Shown here piece after piece: positions 49,244 through 55,372 of a stretch of DNA of 64,000 nt. Within the stretch, counting starts at the first letter, position 1; every line of letters begins with the position of its first letter. The notes beneath the pieces were generated by a model, which had not been told where the DNA came from, ran no database searches, and saw only the letters and a list, made by a program, of their open reading frames with translations. Origin of the DNA: Maricaulis maris (GTDB lineage: Bacteria > Pseudomonadota > Alphaproteobacteria > Caulobacterales > Maricaulaceae); contig NZ_AP027270.1 of NCBI RefSeq assembly GCF_036322705.1, forward strand, positions 2,171,501 to 2,235,500. The letters run 5' to 3'. The position numbers were made by a program, and so were the translations under genes.

Positions 49244-50911
49244 CTACCGCGCGAATTTCTGGAACTTGATCTTCTTGGGCATGTCGGCGTCCGGACCGAG
49301 GCGACGCTTCTTGTCCTCGATATAGTCCTCGAAATTGCCCTCGAACCATTCGACATGGCTGTCGCCTTCAAAGGCGAGGATGTGCGTGGCCAGACGGTCG
49401 AGGAAGAAACGGTCGTGCGAGATCACCACGGCACAGCCCGGATAGGCTTCCAGCGCCTGCTCCAGCGCCGCCAGGGTTTCCACGTCCAGATCGTTGGTCG
49501 GCTCATCGAGCAGCAGCAGGTTGCCGCCGGTCTGCAGCATCTTGGCGAGGTGGACGCGGTTGCGCTCACCACCGGAGAGCAAGCCCACCTTTTTCTGCTG
49601 GTCGCCGCCCTTGAAGTTGAACGTGCCGACATAGGCGCGCGAGGGGACTTCCTTGCCGCCCAGCTCGATCATGTCATTGCCGCCGGAGATTTCCTGCCAG
49701 ACGGTCTTGTTGGGGTCGAGCGTGTCGCGCGACTGGTCGACATAGCCCAGCTTGACCGTCTCGCCGAGACGGATCGAGCCCTCGTCCGGGGTCTCCTGGC
49801 CGGTGATCATCTTGAACAGGGTCGATTTACCCGCACCGTTCGGACCGATCACGCCGACCACGCCGCCCGGCGGCAGCTTGAAGGACAGGCCATCAATGAG
49901 CAGCTTGTCCTCGAAGCCCTTCTTGAGGTTCTCCACCTCGACCACGACACCGCCCAGGCGCGGCCCCGGCGGAATGGTGATCTGGGCCGTGGTGATCTCG
50001 GCGCGCTCGGCGGCATCGCGCAGGTCCTCATAGGACTTGATACGCGCCTTCGCCTTGGCCTGGCGGGCTTTCGGCGAGGAGCGGATCCATTCCAGTTCGC
50101 GCATCAGGGCGCGATCCTTGGCGCTCTTTTCGCGGTCTTCCTGGGCCAGGCGCTTGGACTTCTGTTCCAGCCAGGAGGAGTAGCCGCCCTCATAGGGCAC
50201 ACCGCGGCCGCGATCGAGTTCGAGCGTCCAGGTGGTGATCGAGTCGAGGAAGTAGCGGTCGTGGGTGACAACCAGCACGGCGCCCTTGAAGTCTTCCAGA
50301 TAGTTCTGCAGCCACTGCACGCTTTCGGCGTCGAGGTGGTTGGTCGGCTCATCGAGCAGCAGCATGTGCGGGTCGGACAGCAAGAGGCGGCACAGGGCCA
50401 CGCGGCGACGCTCACCACCGGACAGGTCGGTGACGGGCCAGTCGGCCGGCGGACAGCGCAGCGCCGTCATCGCCATCTCGATCTTCGAGTCGATGTCCCA
50501 GGCGTTCTCGTTGTCGATCTTCTCCTGGAGCTCGGTCATCTTCTCCATCAGCTCGTCGGTATAATCCTCCGCCAGCTGCATCGAGATGGCATTGAACTCC
50601 TCCAGGAGCTGCTTGGGCGCCGAGCCTTCGATCACATTTTCCCAGACCGTCTTGTCTTCATCGAGCTGCGGTTCCTGGGCGAGATAACCGACCTTCACGC
50701 CCTTCTCGGCCCAGGCTTCACCGGTGAATTCGGTGTCCATGCCGGCCATGATCTTCAGCAGAGTGGACTTACCGGCACCGTTGACGCCGACAACACCGAT
50801 CTTGGCGTCGGGCAGGAAGTGCAGGGAAATACCGTCGAACACCGGCTTGGCAGCGCCCGGATAGGTCTTCGACAGCTTGTCCATGTGATAGACGAATTTG
50901 TATGCGGCCAT
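49244..50911 (-). CDS. ettA: Energy-dependent translational throttle protein EttA (ABC-F)
   Basis: EttA is the ABC-F ATPase that binds the ribosomal E site and gates translation elongation according to ADP/ATP. The start ATG 50911 gives 555 residues, the same length as E. coli EttA. Two ABC domains are seen: Walker A GVNGAGKSTLL and signature LSGGERRRVALCRLL with Walker B MLLLDEPTNHLD; then GPNGAGKSTLF, LSGGERNRVHLAKML and LLLLDEPTNDLD. The linker has the ABC-F P-site tRNA interaction motif (an Arg/Lys-rich SPKARQAKAKARI). The longer frame to 51115 is repeat-derived sequence, not protein. Confidence 0.97.
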   Translation of the reverse strand: MAAYKFVYHMDKLSKTYPGAAKPVFDGISLHFLPDAKIGVVGVNGAGKSTLLKIMAGMDTEFTGEAWAEKGVKVGYLAQEPQLDEDKTVWENVIEGSAPKQLLEEFNAISMQLAEDYTDELMEKMTELQEKIDNENAWDIDSKIEMAMTALRCPPADWPVTDLSGGERRRVALCRLLLSDPHMLLLDEPTNHLDAESVQWLQNYLEDFKGAVLVVTHDRYFLDSITTWTLELDRGRGVPYEGGYSSWLEQKSKRLAQEDREKSAKDRALMRELEWIRSSPKARQAKAKARIKSYEDLRDAAERAEITTAQITIPPGPRLGGVVVEVENLKKGFEDKLLIDGLSFKLPPGGVVGVIGPNGAGKSTLFKMITGQETPDEGSIRLGETVKLGYVDQSRDTLDPNKTVWQEISGGNDMIELGGKEVPSRAYVGTFNFKGGDQQKKVGLLSGGERNRVHLAKMLQTGGNLLLLDEPTNDLDVETLAALEQALEAYPGCAVVISHDRFFLDRLATHILAFEGDSHVEWFEGNFEDYIEDKKRRLGPDADMPKKIKFQKFAR

Positions 50912-51011
50912 GGGGGAGAGGCTCTCTTGTCTGGCAGGGAATCTTGAGCCGCACCCTGTAGCGGAGTGAGGCTGCAAGGGCAATGCGGGAAAGGCGTGGG
51001 AGATGACGGGG

Positions 51012-51092
51012 CATCCTTTCCTTCCCCCACCGTGGGGAAGTGTCCTGGCGCGTCGCGGCAAGACGGAGGGGTGACGCCAGAGGCGGCATGGG
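51012..51092. repeat. Dispersed intergenic repeat, copy A
   Basis: An about 81-base block beginning CATCCTTTCCT and containing GCGGCAAGACGGAGGGGTGA and GGCGGCATGGGC. A second copy is at 52875-52956. They share about 80% of bases with small indels. The end of this copy grades into the 214-bp tandem array that starts at about 51090. Confidence 0.8.
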
Positions 51093-52293
51093 CGCCAGCA
51101 CGCTCTTCGAAACACCCCACCCCTCCGTCATCCCACGGTGACCGCAAAGCGGGCATCCGGGGGACCTGTGCTTCCCCGTCGACGGCCTGGCTGAGGTCCC
51201 CCGGATCGCGACTGTGCCGCGACCGTGGGATGACGGTGGGGAATTGGGGTGATGGTGTTGGAGCGGACGCGGCGCACTCCCGGCAAGGGGTGAAGGGCGA
51301 AGCGGGCGCCGGCACGCTCTTCGCAACACCCAACCCCACCGTCATCCCACGGTGGCCGCGAAGCGGGCATCCGGGGGACCTGTGCTTCCCCGTCGACGGC
51401 CTGGCTGAGGTCCCCCGGATCGCGGCTTTGCCGCGACCGTGGGATGACGGTTGGGAAGTGGGGTGATGGTGTTGGAGCGGATATTGCGTCATCCCGGCAA
51501 GGGGTGAAGGGCGAAGCGGGCGCCAGCACGCTCTTCGCAACACCCCTCTACACCGTCATCCCACGGTGACCGCAAAGCGGGCATCCGGGGGACCTGTGCT
51601 TCCCCGTCGACGGCCGGGCTGAGGTCCCCCGGATCGCGGCCTTGCCGCGACCGTGGGATGACGGTGGGGAATTGGGGTGATGGTGTTGGAGCGGACGCGG
51701 CGCACTCCCGGCAAGGGGTGAAGGGCGAATCGGGCGCCAGCACGCTCTTCGAAACACCCCACCCCTCCGTCATCCCAAGGTGACCGCGAAGCGGGCGTCC
51801 GGGGGACCTGCGCTTCCCCGTCGACGGCCTGGCTGAGGTCCCCCGGATCGCGGCTTTGCCGCGACCGTGGGATGACGGTTGGGAAGTGGGGTGATGGTGT
51901 TGGAGCGGATATTGCGTCATCCCGGCAAGGGGTGAAGGGCGAAGCGGGCGCCAGCACGCTCTTCGCAACACCCCTCTACACCGTCATCCCACGGTGACCG
52001 CAAAGCGGGCATCCGGGGGACCTGTGCTTCCCCGTCGACGGCCGGGCTGAGGTCCCCCGGATCGCGGCCTTGCCGCGACCGTGGGATGACGGTGGGGAAT
52101 TGGGGTGATGGTGTTGGAGCGGACGCGGCGCACTCCCGGCAAGGGGTGAAGGGCGAAGCGGGCGCCAGCACGCTCTTCGAAACACGCCACCCCTCCGTCA
52201 TCCCACGGTGACCGCGAAGCGGGCGTCCGGGGGACCTGTGCTTCCCCGTTTGCAGATTGGCTGAGGTCCCCCGGACAAGCCGTGGGATGACGG
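51090..52293. repeat. Tandem array of 214-bp units with 428-bp super-period and palindromic arms
   Basis: The landmark CGTCATCCCA begins each unit at 51126, 51340, 51554, 51768, 51982 and 52196: the spacing is exactly 214 bases five times. Units alternate between two variants, A (51126, 51554, 51982; followed by GGACGCGGCGCACTCCCGG) and B (51340, 51768; GGATATTGCGTCATCCCGG). A at 51554 and 51982 differ at about two positions, B at 51340 and 51768 at about four, so there was an A-B duplication followed by recent 428-base duplications. The last unit (52196) is truncated and diverged. Each unit has two arms of about 43 bases, beginning CCGTCATCCCACGGT and ending ACCGTGGGATGACGG, that are nearly complementary with ATCCGGGGGACCT/AGGTCCCCCGGAT inside, so each could form a long hairpin. 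214 is not a multiple of three, so the apparent reading frames are not proteins. Confidence 0.95.
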
Positions 52294-52614
52294 TGGGTAT
52301 GAAGCGATCAAAGGGATCGAAGTCGACCGACTTATCCCCCGCCACACCACCCTAACCCACTGCAAATCCGCACTTTCCCAAAAACCTTATCCGCCCCTCT
52401 TCCCGGATACCCCATACTTCTCCCGTTCCCGCGCCAACTCGAGGCTCGGACCGGTTATCCGGGGGTGCGGGGATTGCGGAGCTCGTCCGGTCTTGTGGAT
52501 TTGACCACCACAAAACCCGGCGTGGCCATCGGCAGGACGGCGGCACAAAGCTCGACCGTTTGTTCCTGTCGGTTTCGAGACGGGGCCGGTAACGGCTCCG
52601 ACCAAATCTCCGTG

Positions 52615-52678
52615 TGCGAGGTGCCCCCGGCGCCACCTACACAACTTCCATAGCAAGGCACCGGCAAGGCACCTCGCA
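52615..52678. repeat. Hairpin with 11-base perfect stem
   Basis: TGCGAGGTGCC (52615-52625) and GGCACCTCGCA (52668-52678) are perfect inverted repeats with a 42-base loop that itself holds GGCACC/GGCGCC elements. It could be a small structured RNA or an element end. There is no T-run after either arm. Confidence 0.7.
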
Positions 52679-52874
52679 CCCCTCAACTGCTCACAACGCC
52701 AGGCGATCGCGCCGTGGCGCGGATGGGCGCGTCACCCTTTCCGTCAACAGATATGGGGTCATGCCATGTCAGCTCGCCGCCCTGCCCGCGTTTGGGGTTT
52801 TCCGTTCTGGCGCTCACGCGCCTTTCAATCCGGGCGGTGCGGTTGGGGTGTGGGGTTTCGTGCCAAACGACGGA

Positions 52875-52956
52875 CATCCTTTCCTCCCCATTCCATGGCG
52901 AGGTGTCTTGGCGCGAAGCGGCAAAACGGAGGGGTGACGCCGAAGGCGGCATGGGC
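52875..52956. repeat. Dispersed intergenic repeat, copy B
   Basis: Second copy of the block at 51012-51092, beginning CATCCTTTCCT and ending with GGCGGCATGGGC, in the same orientation. It lies 160 bases upstream of the DPP IV gene. The two copies bracket the tandem array and the unassigned region. Confidence 0.8.
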
Positions 52957-53116
52957 CACACCTCGCCCAGCCCCTCCTCGCCGCGCTCGGGCCCCTTCCC
53001 CACACGTGGGGAAGAAAACCGGCGTGGCTGCACCCGACAACCGCCCATGCGGTCAGGTCTGGCCAGCCAAAGCCGGCGCTCCTAAAACGGGCAACGAGAT
53101 TATCCGGGGAGTTTTC

Positions 53117-55372
53117 ATGACCGTTCGCCTTGCCAGCCTTCTTGCTGTCGCCACAGTCCTGACCGCCTGCCAGCCGGCCAGCGAAACGACCGTCCAAACA
53201 GTTGATGCCGAGCCCGCCCTCACGATCGAGCGGATCCATGCCAGCCCGTCGCTCAACGGGGCTGCGCCGCGGTCGCTGACCTTCTCGCCGGACGGCTCGC
53301 GTGTGACCTTTCTGCGCGCCAAGGACGAGGACGCCACCGTGCTCGACCTGTGGGCGATGGATATCGATGGTGGCGAGCCCTACCGGCTGGTCGACAGCCA
53401 GGTCCTGGCGCCGGACGAGCGCGCGCTGACCGAGGCCGAGCGTCAGCTGCGTGAGCGCGCCCGCATCTCCTCGACCGGGATTGTGCGCTATGACTGGGAC
53501 AGCCAGGGCGAGGCCATCCTGGTGCCGCTCGATGGCGATGTCTTCTACGTCGATGTGGCGACCGGTGAGGCGCGCCGGCTGATGGAGACGCCGGAATACG
53601 AGACCGATGCCCGCATCTCCCCGCGCGGCAATTTCGCATCCTTCGTCCGCGAACAAAATCTCTACGTGATCGATCTGGAGAGTGGCGAGGAAACCGCCAT
53701 CACCACGGATGGCGGCGATCTGGTCTCCTGGGGCATGGCCGAATTCGTCGCCCAGGAGGAGCTAGGCCGCCGCACCGGCTATTGGTGGTCACCGGACGAG
53801 CAATACATTGCCCTCGCCCGCGTCGATGAAAGCCCGGTCGACAATATCCAGCGCATGGAGATCGACGCCGACGGCTCGGCCCGGGTGGTCGACCAGCGCT
53901 ATCCGCGTGCCGGCACCGACAATGCCCTGGTCGAGCTCTTCATTGCCGAGCGCGCGACCGGGACCCGCCGTCCGGTCGAGCTGGCCGACACCGATGACAT
54001 CTATCTGGCCCGCGTGAACTGGTCTGCCGACAGCGCCACCGCCTATGTCCAGGTGCTCAACCGGATGCAGAACGAGCTGACCATTCTGGCCGCTGACCCG
54101 GCCAGCGGCGAGGCCGCGCCCTGGCTGGTCGAGACGACCGATATCTGGATCAATCTGACCAATGATTTCCGCGCCCTCGCCGACGGCAGCGTGATCTGGA
54201 CCAGCGAGGACACGCCCGGCGGTTTCCGTCATATCCAGCACCGCGCCGCCGATGGCAGCCTGATCACACAGGTGACGTCCGGCGCCTGGGTCGTCGACGC
54301 GATCAATGCCGTCGACCAGGATAATGGCCTTGTCTATTTCACCGGCTGGATCGAGACCCCGCTGGAGCGCCACATCTATTCCGTGCCGCTCGACGGCTCG
54401 GCCGCTCCGACCCGCATCACCTCGGGTGAAGGGCGCTGGTCGGCGACCTTCGGCGGCGATGCCGCGACCTTTATCGGCACCTATTCCGACCCGTCGACGC
54501 CGGCCCAGACGGCGCTTTACACTGTCGATGGCAGCCGCATCCGCTGGATCGAGGAGAACGCCCTGGTCGAGGGCCATCCCTATTTCCCCTATCTCGACGA
54601 TCACATCACACCGCAATACGGGACGCTGACAGCGGCTGATGGCAGCGAGCTGCACTACCAGATCTTCCTGCCCGCCGATTTCGACCCGAACCGGCAATAT
54701 CCGGCCATCCAGTATCTCTACGGCGGGCCGCACAGCCAGCAGGTCCATCGCGGCTGGCAGTCGATGCGGGCGCAGATGTTTGCCCAGCGCGGCTATGTCT
54801 ATTTCACGATCGATAATCGCGGCTCTTGGAATCGGGGGCGCGACTTCGAGGGTCAGCTGCAGCGCCGCATGGGCTCGGTCGAGGTCGAGGACCAGCTGGT
54901 CGGGCTGGACTATCTCAAGAGCCTCGACTTCGTTGACGCCGACCGGGTCGGGATCTGGGGCTGGTCCTATGGCGGCTACATGACGCTGATGTCGACCCTG
55001 CAGGCACCCGGCGCCTGGGCGGCCGGTGTCGCCGGCGCCCCGGTCACCGACTGGGCGCTCTATGACACCGCCTATACGGAGCGCTACATGGACCACCCGG
55101 ATGCCAATTTCGAGGGTTACCGGGCCTCCTCCGTCTTTGCCCATCTGGACAATTACGAGACCCCGCTCCTCTTGATCCACGGCATGGCCGACGACAATGT
55201 CATCTTCGCCAATTCAGTCCGGCTCTACTCCGAACTCCAGCAGCAACGCGCCCAGTTCGAGATGATGACCTATCCCGGCCAGCGTCACGGCGTCCGCGGC
55301 GAGGACCGCCAGACCCAGATGTGGACGATGATCGTCGATTATTTCGATCGCAAGCTGAAGGATGAGGGTTAG
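53117..55372 (+). CDS. Dipeptidyl peptidase IV-type S9 serine peptidase, lipoprotein
   Basis: A 751-residue S9B peptidase that removes Xaa-Pro dipeptides from peptide N-termini. ATG 53117 (GGGGAG upstream) gives a signal with lipobox VLTAC (Cys17), so it is probably anchored in the envelope. An N-terminal beta-propeller (about 40-480) is followed by an alpha/beta hydrolase with the nucleophile GWSYGGYMT (about Ser617), Asp in GMADDNVIF (about 692) and His in GQRHGVRG (about 723). The Glu pair for the substrate amine is in the ELGRRTGYWW-preceding AQEELGR segment. The frame upstream of 53117 covers repeat B and is not coding. Confidence 0.95.
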   Translation: MTVRLASLLAVATVLTACQPASETTVQTVDAEPALTIERIHASPSLNGAAPRSLTFSPDGSRVTFLRAKDEDATVLDLWAMDIDGGEPYRLVDSQVLAPDERALTEAERQLRERARISSTGIVRYDWDSQGEAILVPLDGDVFYVDVATGEARRLMETPEYETDARISPRGNFASFVREQNLYVIDLESGEETAITTDGGDLVSWGMAEFVAQEELGRRTGYWWSPDEQYIALARVDESPVDNIQRMEIDADGSARVVDQRYPRAGTDNALVELFIAERATGTRRPVELADTDDIYLARVNWSADSATAYVQVLNRMQNELTILAADPASGEAAPWLVETTDIWINLTNDFRALADGSVIWTSEDTPGGFRHIQHRAADGSLITQVTSGAWVVDAINAVDQDNGLVYFTGWIETPLERHIYSVPLDGSAAPTRITSGEGRWSATFGGDAATFIGTYSDPSTPAQTALYTVDGSRIRWIEENALVEGHPYFPYLDDHITPQYGTLTAADGSELHYQIFLPADFDPNRQYPAIQYLYGGPHSQQVHRGWQSMRAQMFAQRGYVYFTIDNRGSWNRGRDFEGQLQRRMGSVEVEDQLVGLDYLKSLDFVDADRVGIWGWSYGGYMTLMSTLQAPGAWAAGVAGAPVTDWALYDTAYTERYMDHPDANFEGYRASSVFAHLDNYETPLLLIHGMADDNVIFANSVRLYSELQQQRAQFEMMTYPGQRHGVRGEDRQTQMWTMIVDYFDRKLKDEG

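Follow-up and report, generated by a model that had tools for sequence, protein, structure and literature searches.

A tandem array of CGTC-tagged REP dimers upstream of a multicopy structured RNA gene in Maricaulis maris, and its possible relation to solo GIY-YIG nuclease genes

The intergenic region between ettA and dpp4 of Maricaulis maris, which lies in the 64,000-nucleotide stretch of DNA analysed here (the window), harbors a tandem array of six palindromic elements. According to our analysis, these elements are probably non-autonomous REP dimers belonging to a REP/GIY-YIG mobile system that underwent tandem amplification and moved from one locus to another by exchange. As repeats, REPs are common in bacteria; the organization of the array, the RNA gene adjoining it, and the GIY-YIG genes flanked by similar REPs in related genomes are described below.

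Anatomy of the array and its relatives

Tandem Repeats Finder detected a single array at positions 51,090-52,275, with a period of 214 bp, 5.5 copies, 90% matches, and 0% indels. The mapping of palindromes and spacers revealed five palindromes of 112 bp and a final one of 99 bp, with spacers all of exactly 102 bp (Table 1). The exact 214-bp spacing of six landmarks reported in the first-pass annotation was found for units 1-5, while unit 6 matches over about 116 nt and then continues into the shorter palindrome. The large palindrome making up most of each unit had escaped that annotation, as had two sister arrays in the genome and the multicopy element to the right of the array. As DNA, both palindrome types fold far better than their shuffled versions (Table 1); one whole unit folded as RNA gave a z of -5.6.

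Table 1. Features of the ettA-dpp4 region (positions in the window)
Feature	Position	Strand	Basis or remark
ABC-F protein gene (EttA-like), divergent from the RNA	49244..50914	-	Pfam ABC_tran, ABC_tran_Xtn
Tandem array, six REP dimers and 102-bp spacers	51090..52293	.	TRF, unit comparison, palindrome/spacer mapping
First 112-bp palindrome, head-to-head CGTC-REP dimer	51125..51236	.	DNA fold z -7.4
Further 112-bp palindromes	51339-51450, 51553-51664, 51767-51878, 51981-52092
Sixth palindrome, 99-bp variant	52195..52293	.	DNA fold z -7.7
Promoter-like boxes, TTATCC (52387-52392) and CATACT (52413-52418)	52387..52418	+	spacer 20, ahead of the RNA
Multicopy structured RNA gene copy	52425..52720	+	ends approximate; terminal hairpin 52697-52719
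Dipeptidyl peptidase IV-like gene, here dpp4	53117..55372	+	Pfam DPPIV_N, Peptidase_S9

Two types of unit alternate along the array. The A-type units (1, 3, and 5) share 204/214 (units 1 and 3), 205/214, and 213/214 (units 3 and 5) identical positions and the B-type units 2 and 4 share 206/214; A-type and B-type units share 193-199/214. The identity within a type thus ranges from 95.3 to 99.5%, and the value of 98-99% given initially overstates it for all pairs but units 3 and 5. The recent 428-bp amplification proposed at that stage fits units 3 and 5 best, and units 2 and 4 and units 1 and 3 less well. Moreover, in the unit alignment the left end of the unit groups otherwise than the right end (1, 4, and 6 alike; 3 and 5 alike; 2 apart), so that the array is a mosaic and not a clean 428-bp doubling; an old 214-bp unit with later local duplication is borne out.

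The array is non-coding, as had been proposed: 214 is not a multiple of three and the ORFs located there are mechanical only, which led us to reject a coding repeat. Over the array, the Rfam hits were limited to models of microRNAs and sRNAs, all scoring far under the gathering threshold, and the search for a phage or plasmid origin gave no match. Two direct copies (84%) of a TTCCCC...GGGGAAG-type palindromic repeat, at 51,009-51,093 and 52,876-52,956 of the window, bracket the array and the RNA gene.

A search for other 214-base arrays, suggested in the first-pass annotation, was carried out on the M. maris genome (G000; one contig, 3,142,398 bp) and retrieved the same unit in two further arrays, at C1:433400-434157 and C1:2385251-2385808. 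The window array embeds six palindromes and the sister arrays four and three, with one 99-bp variant in each array; the spacers of the three arrays are 102 bp long except for one of 103 bp, and several palindromes are 99% identical between loci. The B-type spacer is also present in the 433-kb array, which implies that the divergence of A and B is older than the spread of the unit. The window array and the 433-kb array have a common sequence directly after the last palindrome, and the RNA gene beside the window array shares 98-99% identity with the one at 2386 kb, against 83% with the one at 433 kb; such a patchwork argues for recombination among these loci. The distance from the end of each array to the TTATCC box of the RNA copy downstream of it is about 90-125 bp. 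The three neighbourhoods do not represent three independent events, and array and RNA may have been copied together.

Another REP array, with a period of 348 bp and 2.9 copies, is located at about C1:2287.4-2288.4 kb (L037, 878-1896) and is not near any listed RNA copy; this shows that an RNA copy alongside is not required for tandem growth. In M. maris DSM 4734 (G018), three palindrome matches about 344 bp apart (C3:420713-421464) likely represent a further tandem array.

In all 13 palindromes of the three arrays, two repeats carry outward CGTC tags (CCGTCATCCC...GGGATGACGG); the tagged ends are CCGTCATCC...GGATGACGG in 12 of them and TCGTCATCC in one. By the terminology of Di Nocera et al. 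(2013; PMC3733652), as set out in the accessible part of that paper, the palindrome is a head-to-head dimer of CGTC-tagged REPs, and the array agrees with the CGTC REPs described there in its outward tags, its head-to-head dimers, its intergenic location, and its alphaproteobacterial host. The definition given there requires a stem of 8-9 bp and a loop of 4-5 nt; by eye, the halves of the 112-bp palindrome have longer, interrupted stems, while the right half of the 99-bp one is nearer to the described form, and stem and loop lengths do not fit neatly any of the families in that part of the paper. The same text reports the reiteration of dimers with flanking DNA for GTAG clusters, a likeness to our array, and treats grouped CGTC elements as rare.

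Since it consists of near-identical REP doublets repeated in tandem together with their flanks, the array is, in form, a tandem REP-dimer (BIME/REPIN-type) cluster, that is, one of a known kind. The initial judgement that such an array is unusual can therefore be retained only in part, as tandem REP/REPIN clusters have already been described and the 348-bp array lies elsewhere in the same genome. A close likeness is with the REPIN clusters of Pseudomonas (Bertels and Rainey 2011, PMC3116915), which are also tandem near-identical REP doublets with flanks; according to the accessible part of that work, they are made up of GTAG-type REPs beside RAYT genes, the largest ordered cluster having four REPINs and one REP, whereas the array is CGTC-type, embeds six dimers, and has no RAYT link.

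The adjoining RNA gene and the orthologous site

The element to the right of the array (about 52,379-52,722, 344 bp) occurs six times in the genome by DNA similarity, and a covariance model of its 3' third gave 13 matches in G000. The RNA model found matches in 17 of the 19 genus genomes and in 3 of the 100 other relatives searched, with at most 22 per genome. RNAalifold, run on 22 RNA copies, predicted 81 pairs, 25 of which show compensatory changes; 97.2% of the cells pair, and every measure is above all 500 shuffles and all slid versions, the structure deriving from the same alignment. The alignment gaps, of 1, 2, 4, and 8 columns, argue against a coding element. No Rfam family was found over the RNA element (positions 50,500-53,800 at E ≤ 5; 12 loci at E ≤ 1), all the hits being below the gathering score, and a known RNA was rejected on this basis. 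A literature search on structured RNA in Maricaulis (riboswitch, structured RNA), with most subscription papers and preprints outside its scope, retrieved no paper.

The flanks were analysed in 44 RNA copies, fewer than the covariance-model matches. TTATCC-like and CATAAT-like boxes, 18-20 nt apart, are present in 44/44 copies, the pattern having been defined after viewing; the sigma-70 scan of the window did not detect any consensus promoter. As for the sequence downstream, 34 same-genome pairs have RNA bodies at least 88% identical, and their downstream flanks exceed 80% in 3 pairs and are mostly unrelated (some flanks were ended by the contig).

Part of the RNA copies could be compared at orthologous sites, two pairs of which, with a flank of 227-254 bp, may be non-orthologous. 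In all 15 pairs involving G000, its best own paralog is closer than the ortholog; the whole set of 28 pairs includes 17 in which each genome has a closer paralog and 3 in which neither genome does. At the lepA site, identity is 90% in the downstream flank (over 1285 bp) and 57% in the RNA, with own paralogs reaching up to 97%. To judge from these comparisons of sequences, the history of the RNA copies looks like concerted evolution or cassette replacement.

The idea of a transposase gene with the 344-bp element as its 5' portion was rejected, in that the ORFs behind the copies differ or are absent. At L050, L067, L068, and L085, one RNA copy is followed by a ribosome-binding site and an ORF of about 150 aa with an arginine-rich start, and ORFs related to it were found in 7 of 41 genomes; the ORFs behind some RNA copies gave no Pfam or NCBIfam match near cut-off and one weak PHROG match of unknown function (E 0.006). 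In L084 (1248-1325, minus strand), a SAM_alpha riboswitch match that falls just short of the gathering score (30.7 bits against 36; E 0.003) lies near a homoserine-dehydrogenase-like gene, named by eye.

The end of ettA was located in 17 of the 19 genus genomes, including G000. The site carries the RNA element in G000, G014 (as far as the contig extends), G015, G016, and G018, with a remnant in G006, and the array is present in G000 only, so that five other Maricaulis genomes harbor the RNA, or its remnant, without the array. A single REP dimer occurs at the site in G006 and G016, and none was found in G014, G015, and G018. In the remaining 11 genomes, neither RNA nor array or REP was found in the ettA flank (up to 1.5 kb, some ended by the contig). 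The tandem expansion is specific to G000 within the genomes sampled.

REPs flanking solo GIY-YIG genes

The first-pass annotation considered the array free of mobile element genes. This is doubtful, given that the REP dimer forming its unit belongs to a subtype found around GIY-YIG genes in sister species. The two G006 dimers most similar to the array palindrome (95% and 93%) lie on either side of a 111-aa GIY-YIG gene, directly upstream of an RNA-plus-ORF pair, the counterpart of which in G000 is preceded by the 433-kb array. A comparison of the GIY-YIG site of G006 with that of G015 showed that the downstream side is orthologous (92% over 1581 bp) and the upstream side is not. The GIY-YIG proteins weakly resemble UPF0213 structures (1zg2, E 0.005), and their catalytic motifs, inspected by eye, are presumably intact.

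The association was then quantified over 70 short GIY-YIG hits (without G028:C10 and G030:C1:141576; hits of uvrC length and G012:C228, of 333 aa, were set aside) by checking the presence of a CGTC motif within 350 bp of the gene (near window) and at 700-1050 bp (far window). The Maricaulis set comprised 49 genes, that is, 48 after the exclusion of L269 at a contig edge. Of these, 20 have the motif on both sides, 11 on one side, and 17 on neither; the motif is present in 51/96 near windows and in 6/90 far ones. In the other families of the same order (21 genes), the corresponding figures are 4, 4, and 13, with 12/42 near and 3/42 far windows, and in a class-wide sample (25 genes; 26 solo genes with loci, one left out as contig edge) they are 3, 6, and 16, with 12/50 near and 3/49 far windows, so the class-wide signal is weak. 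These counts include the founding G006 case, and genes at shared sites are not independent; grouping by homologous flanks gave 27 sites, 13 of which are both-sided in at least one member, 5 one-sided, and 9 without motif. As controls, ParE genes (30 of 45 listed hits with loci) have the motif in 4/48 near windows in Maricaulis, with 0/24 genes both-sided, and in 2/12 near windows elsewhere; upstream of uvrC it was found in 0/17 cases.

Flank type and nuclease subfamily correspond. The subfamily A proteins (G006, G015, and G018; 83-96% identical) have, by eye, array-type REPs on both sides, subfamily B is flanked by TTGTCATCCCGG-type REPs, subfamily C by CGTCATCCTGACG- or CGTCATTCCGG-type ones, and the two tandem GIY-YIG genes of G000 by ATTT-CCCGGA-type repeats. 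The latter genes (L243, G000:C1:2162800-2165700) are 96% identical, each lying between palindromes of that type. A solo GIY-YIG gene with REPs of the array's subtype on both sides was found in G006 and, with matches to the array palindrome that are shorter (for the most part 47-48 bp, 91-94% identical), in G015 and G018, and not in G000. The four GIY-YIG hits of G000 are uvrC, one of B type, and two of ATTT type; none is of the array subtype, and the array is thus an orphan at present.

In a flank-sharing test on flanks outside the ORF at different sites (without L269 and the second G000 tandem copy), a common flank sequence was found in 75/98 pairs with a protein identity of at least 70%, in 30/108 pairs at 60-70%, and in 28/2034 pairs below 60%; the far flanks are shared in 0/98, 1/108, and 2/2034 pairs, respectively. 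The Mantel r is 0.55 (0.65 in Maricaulis), with 0/2000 permutations as high, against 0.04 and 0.05 for the far flanks. Gene and flank type thus go together, which is not to say that the REP is read by the enzyme.

Occupied and empty sites were also compared. At one site, which in G005 spans 214 bp and holds a bare array-type REP dimer, G002 has 731 bp comprising REPs and a GIY-YIG gene, the G002 REPs being of another subtype and not among the array-type matches; G015 and G018 have a dimer-GIY-dimer arrangement where G003 has neither. In the comparison of L223 of G011 with L154 of M. maris, a 111-bp match was found on one side alone.

Possible origin of the array and implications

On the whole, we depict the following scenario. 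The array would have grown beside the structured RNA gene in the ettA-dpp4 intergenic region by duplication between repeats, either through unequal recombination or through slippage at the palindromes, and would have traded units with the two sister arrays, likewise upstream of RNA gene copies. The REP dimer would be the non-autonomous part of the system, and the solo GIY-YIG gene, set between dimers of the subtype proper to it, the coding part. The nuclease probably cuts or nicks at REPs, and repair may copy REPs to new places, taking adjacent DNA along; the array may have arisen through such cutting and repair, and that nuclease would be what moves the REPs. Counting against this are the 17/48 Maricaulis genes and the 9/27 sites without motif, the weak class-wide signal, the failure to find a GIY-YIG gene of the array subtype in G000, the orthology of the G006 and G015 sites on the downstream side only, the differing subtype of the G002 REPs, and the 348-bp array, which grew away from any listed RNA copy; furthermore, the matching flanks may reflect only the joint movement or descent of a gene and its surroundings.

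The alternative that best withstands these data, which we judge rather unlikely, is that of a passive REP/BIME cluster, in which dimers and flanks were amplified by slippage or unequal crossing-over with no nuclease link, the GIY-YIG genes merely lying in REP-rich intergenic DNA. Tandem REPIN clusters with flanks, described in Pseudomonas in the accessible part of PMC3116915, are in line with it, and so is the failure to find a nuclease gene of the array subtype in G000; however, ParE genes, which are also small and accessory, have the motif in their near windows far less often (4/48 against 51/96), and a merely REP-rich background leaves the tracking of nuclease subfamily by flank type unaccounted for.

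The array might also belong functionally to the adjoining RNA gene, for instance as an insulator or a regulatory region under selection. All three arrays do stand at a similar distance from the TTATCC box, and REP-like motifs occur within 200 bp upstream in 40/44 RNA copies against 2/44 in the 100 bp downstream, a count with unequal windows, motifs picked after viewing, and two copies with less than 45 bp of upstream sequence. Nevertheless, the RNA is present at the orthologous site without the array in five other genomes, and the joint copying of array and RNA accounts for the association without any function, which makes this reading quite improbable.

We consider it marginally more improbable still that the REPs of G000 were moved by its Y1 (RAYT-like) transposases. 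The genome does harbor two Y1_Tnp genes, but they are not flanked by cognate REPs: the inverted repeats around them bear no relation to the array palindrome, and neither unit nor palindrome has a match at either locus; RAYT mobilisation was rejected on these grounds. The two genes (L031 and L032) have long inverted repeats of their own, of the TIRYT kind in the accessible part of PMC3733652. An assembly artefact, conceivable in that repeats are assembly-prone, is very improbable in view of three loci in a one-contig genome with differing palindrome counts (6, 4, and 3) and diverged units.

Returning to the REP/GIY-YIG reading, its place among known systems can be outlined. GTAG REPs have a dedicated transposase, the RAYT; CGTC REPs predominate in alphaproteobacteria, and, as far as the accessible part of PMC3733652 goes, none is reported for them and the question is left open, while the gene associated here is a solo GIY-YIG. 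As in the RAYT/REP systems (PMC2817692 and PMC3733652, in their accessible parts), a nuclease-type gene is flanked by REPs, subtypes are paired, and non-autonomous dimers lie elsewhere; unlike in those systems, a GIY-YIG fold (UPF0213-like) replaces the Y1 transposase; the likeness is at most one of working and not of membership. Our literature search, outside the scope of which most subscription papers and preprints lay, found no paper joining GIY-YIG with REPs.

It is conceivable, at somewhat less than an even chance in our estimate, that the solo GIY-YIGs are the missing mobilisers of CGTC REPs, each subfamily serving its own subtype by homing-like cut-and-repair; dimers and tandem arrays would be their non-autonomous offspring, and the co-conversion of adjacent DNA would spread and homogenise the adjoining RNA genes.

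The weight of these findings lies less with the array than with the REP/GIY-YIG pairing and the RNA family; the surroundings of the array, like those of its relatives, are not ordinary. Few bacterial RNAs would resemble a structured RNA without any Rfam match that has 13 copies here and more elsewhere, at conserved loci and homogenised within each genome. The nuclease gene lying between array-like elements in sister species hints at an agent that may spread copies of them through these genomes, and the pairing of REP subtypes with small GIY-YIG genes provides a concrete, testable mobiliser candidate for CGTC REPs. If this were true, a homing-type nuclease family would be found where a transposase was expected.
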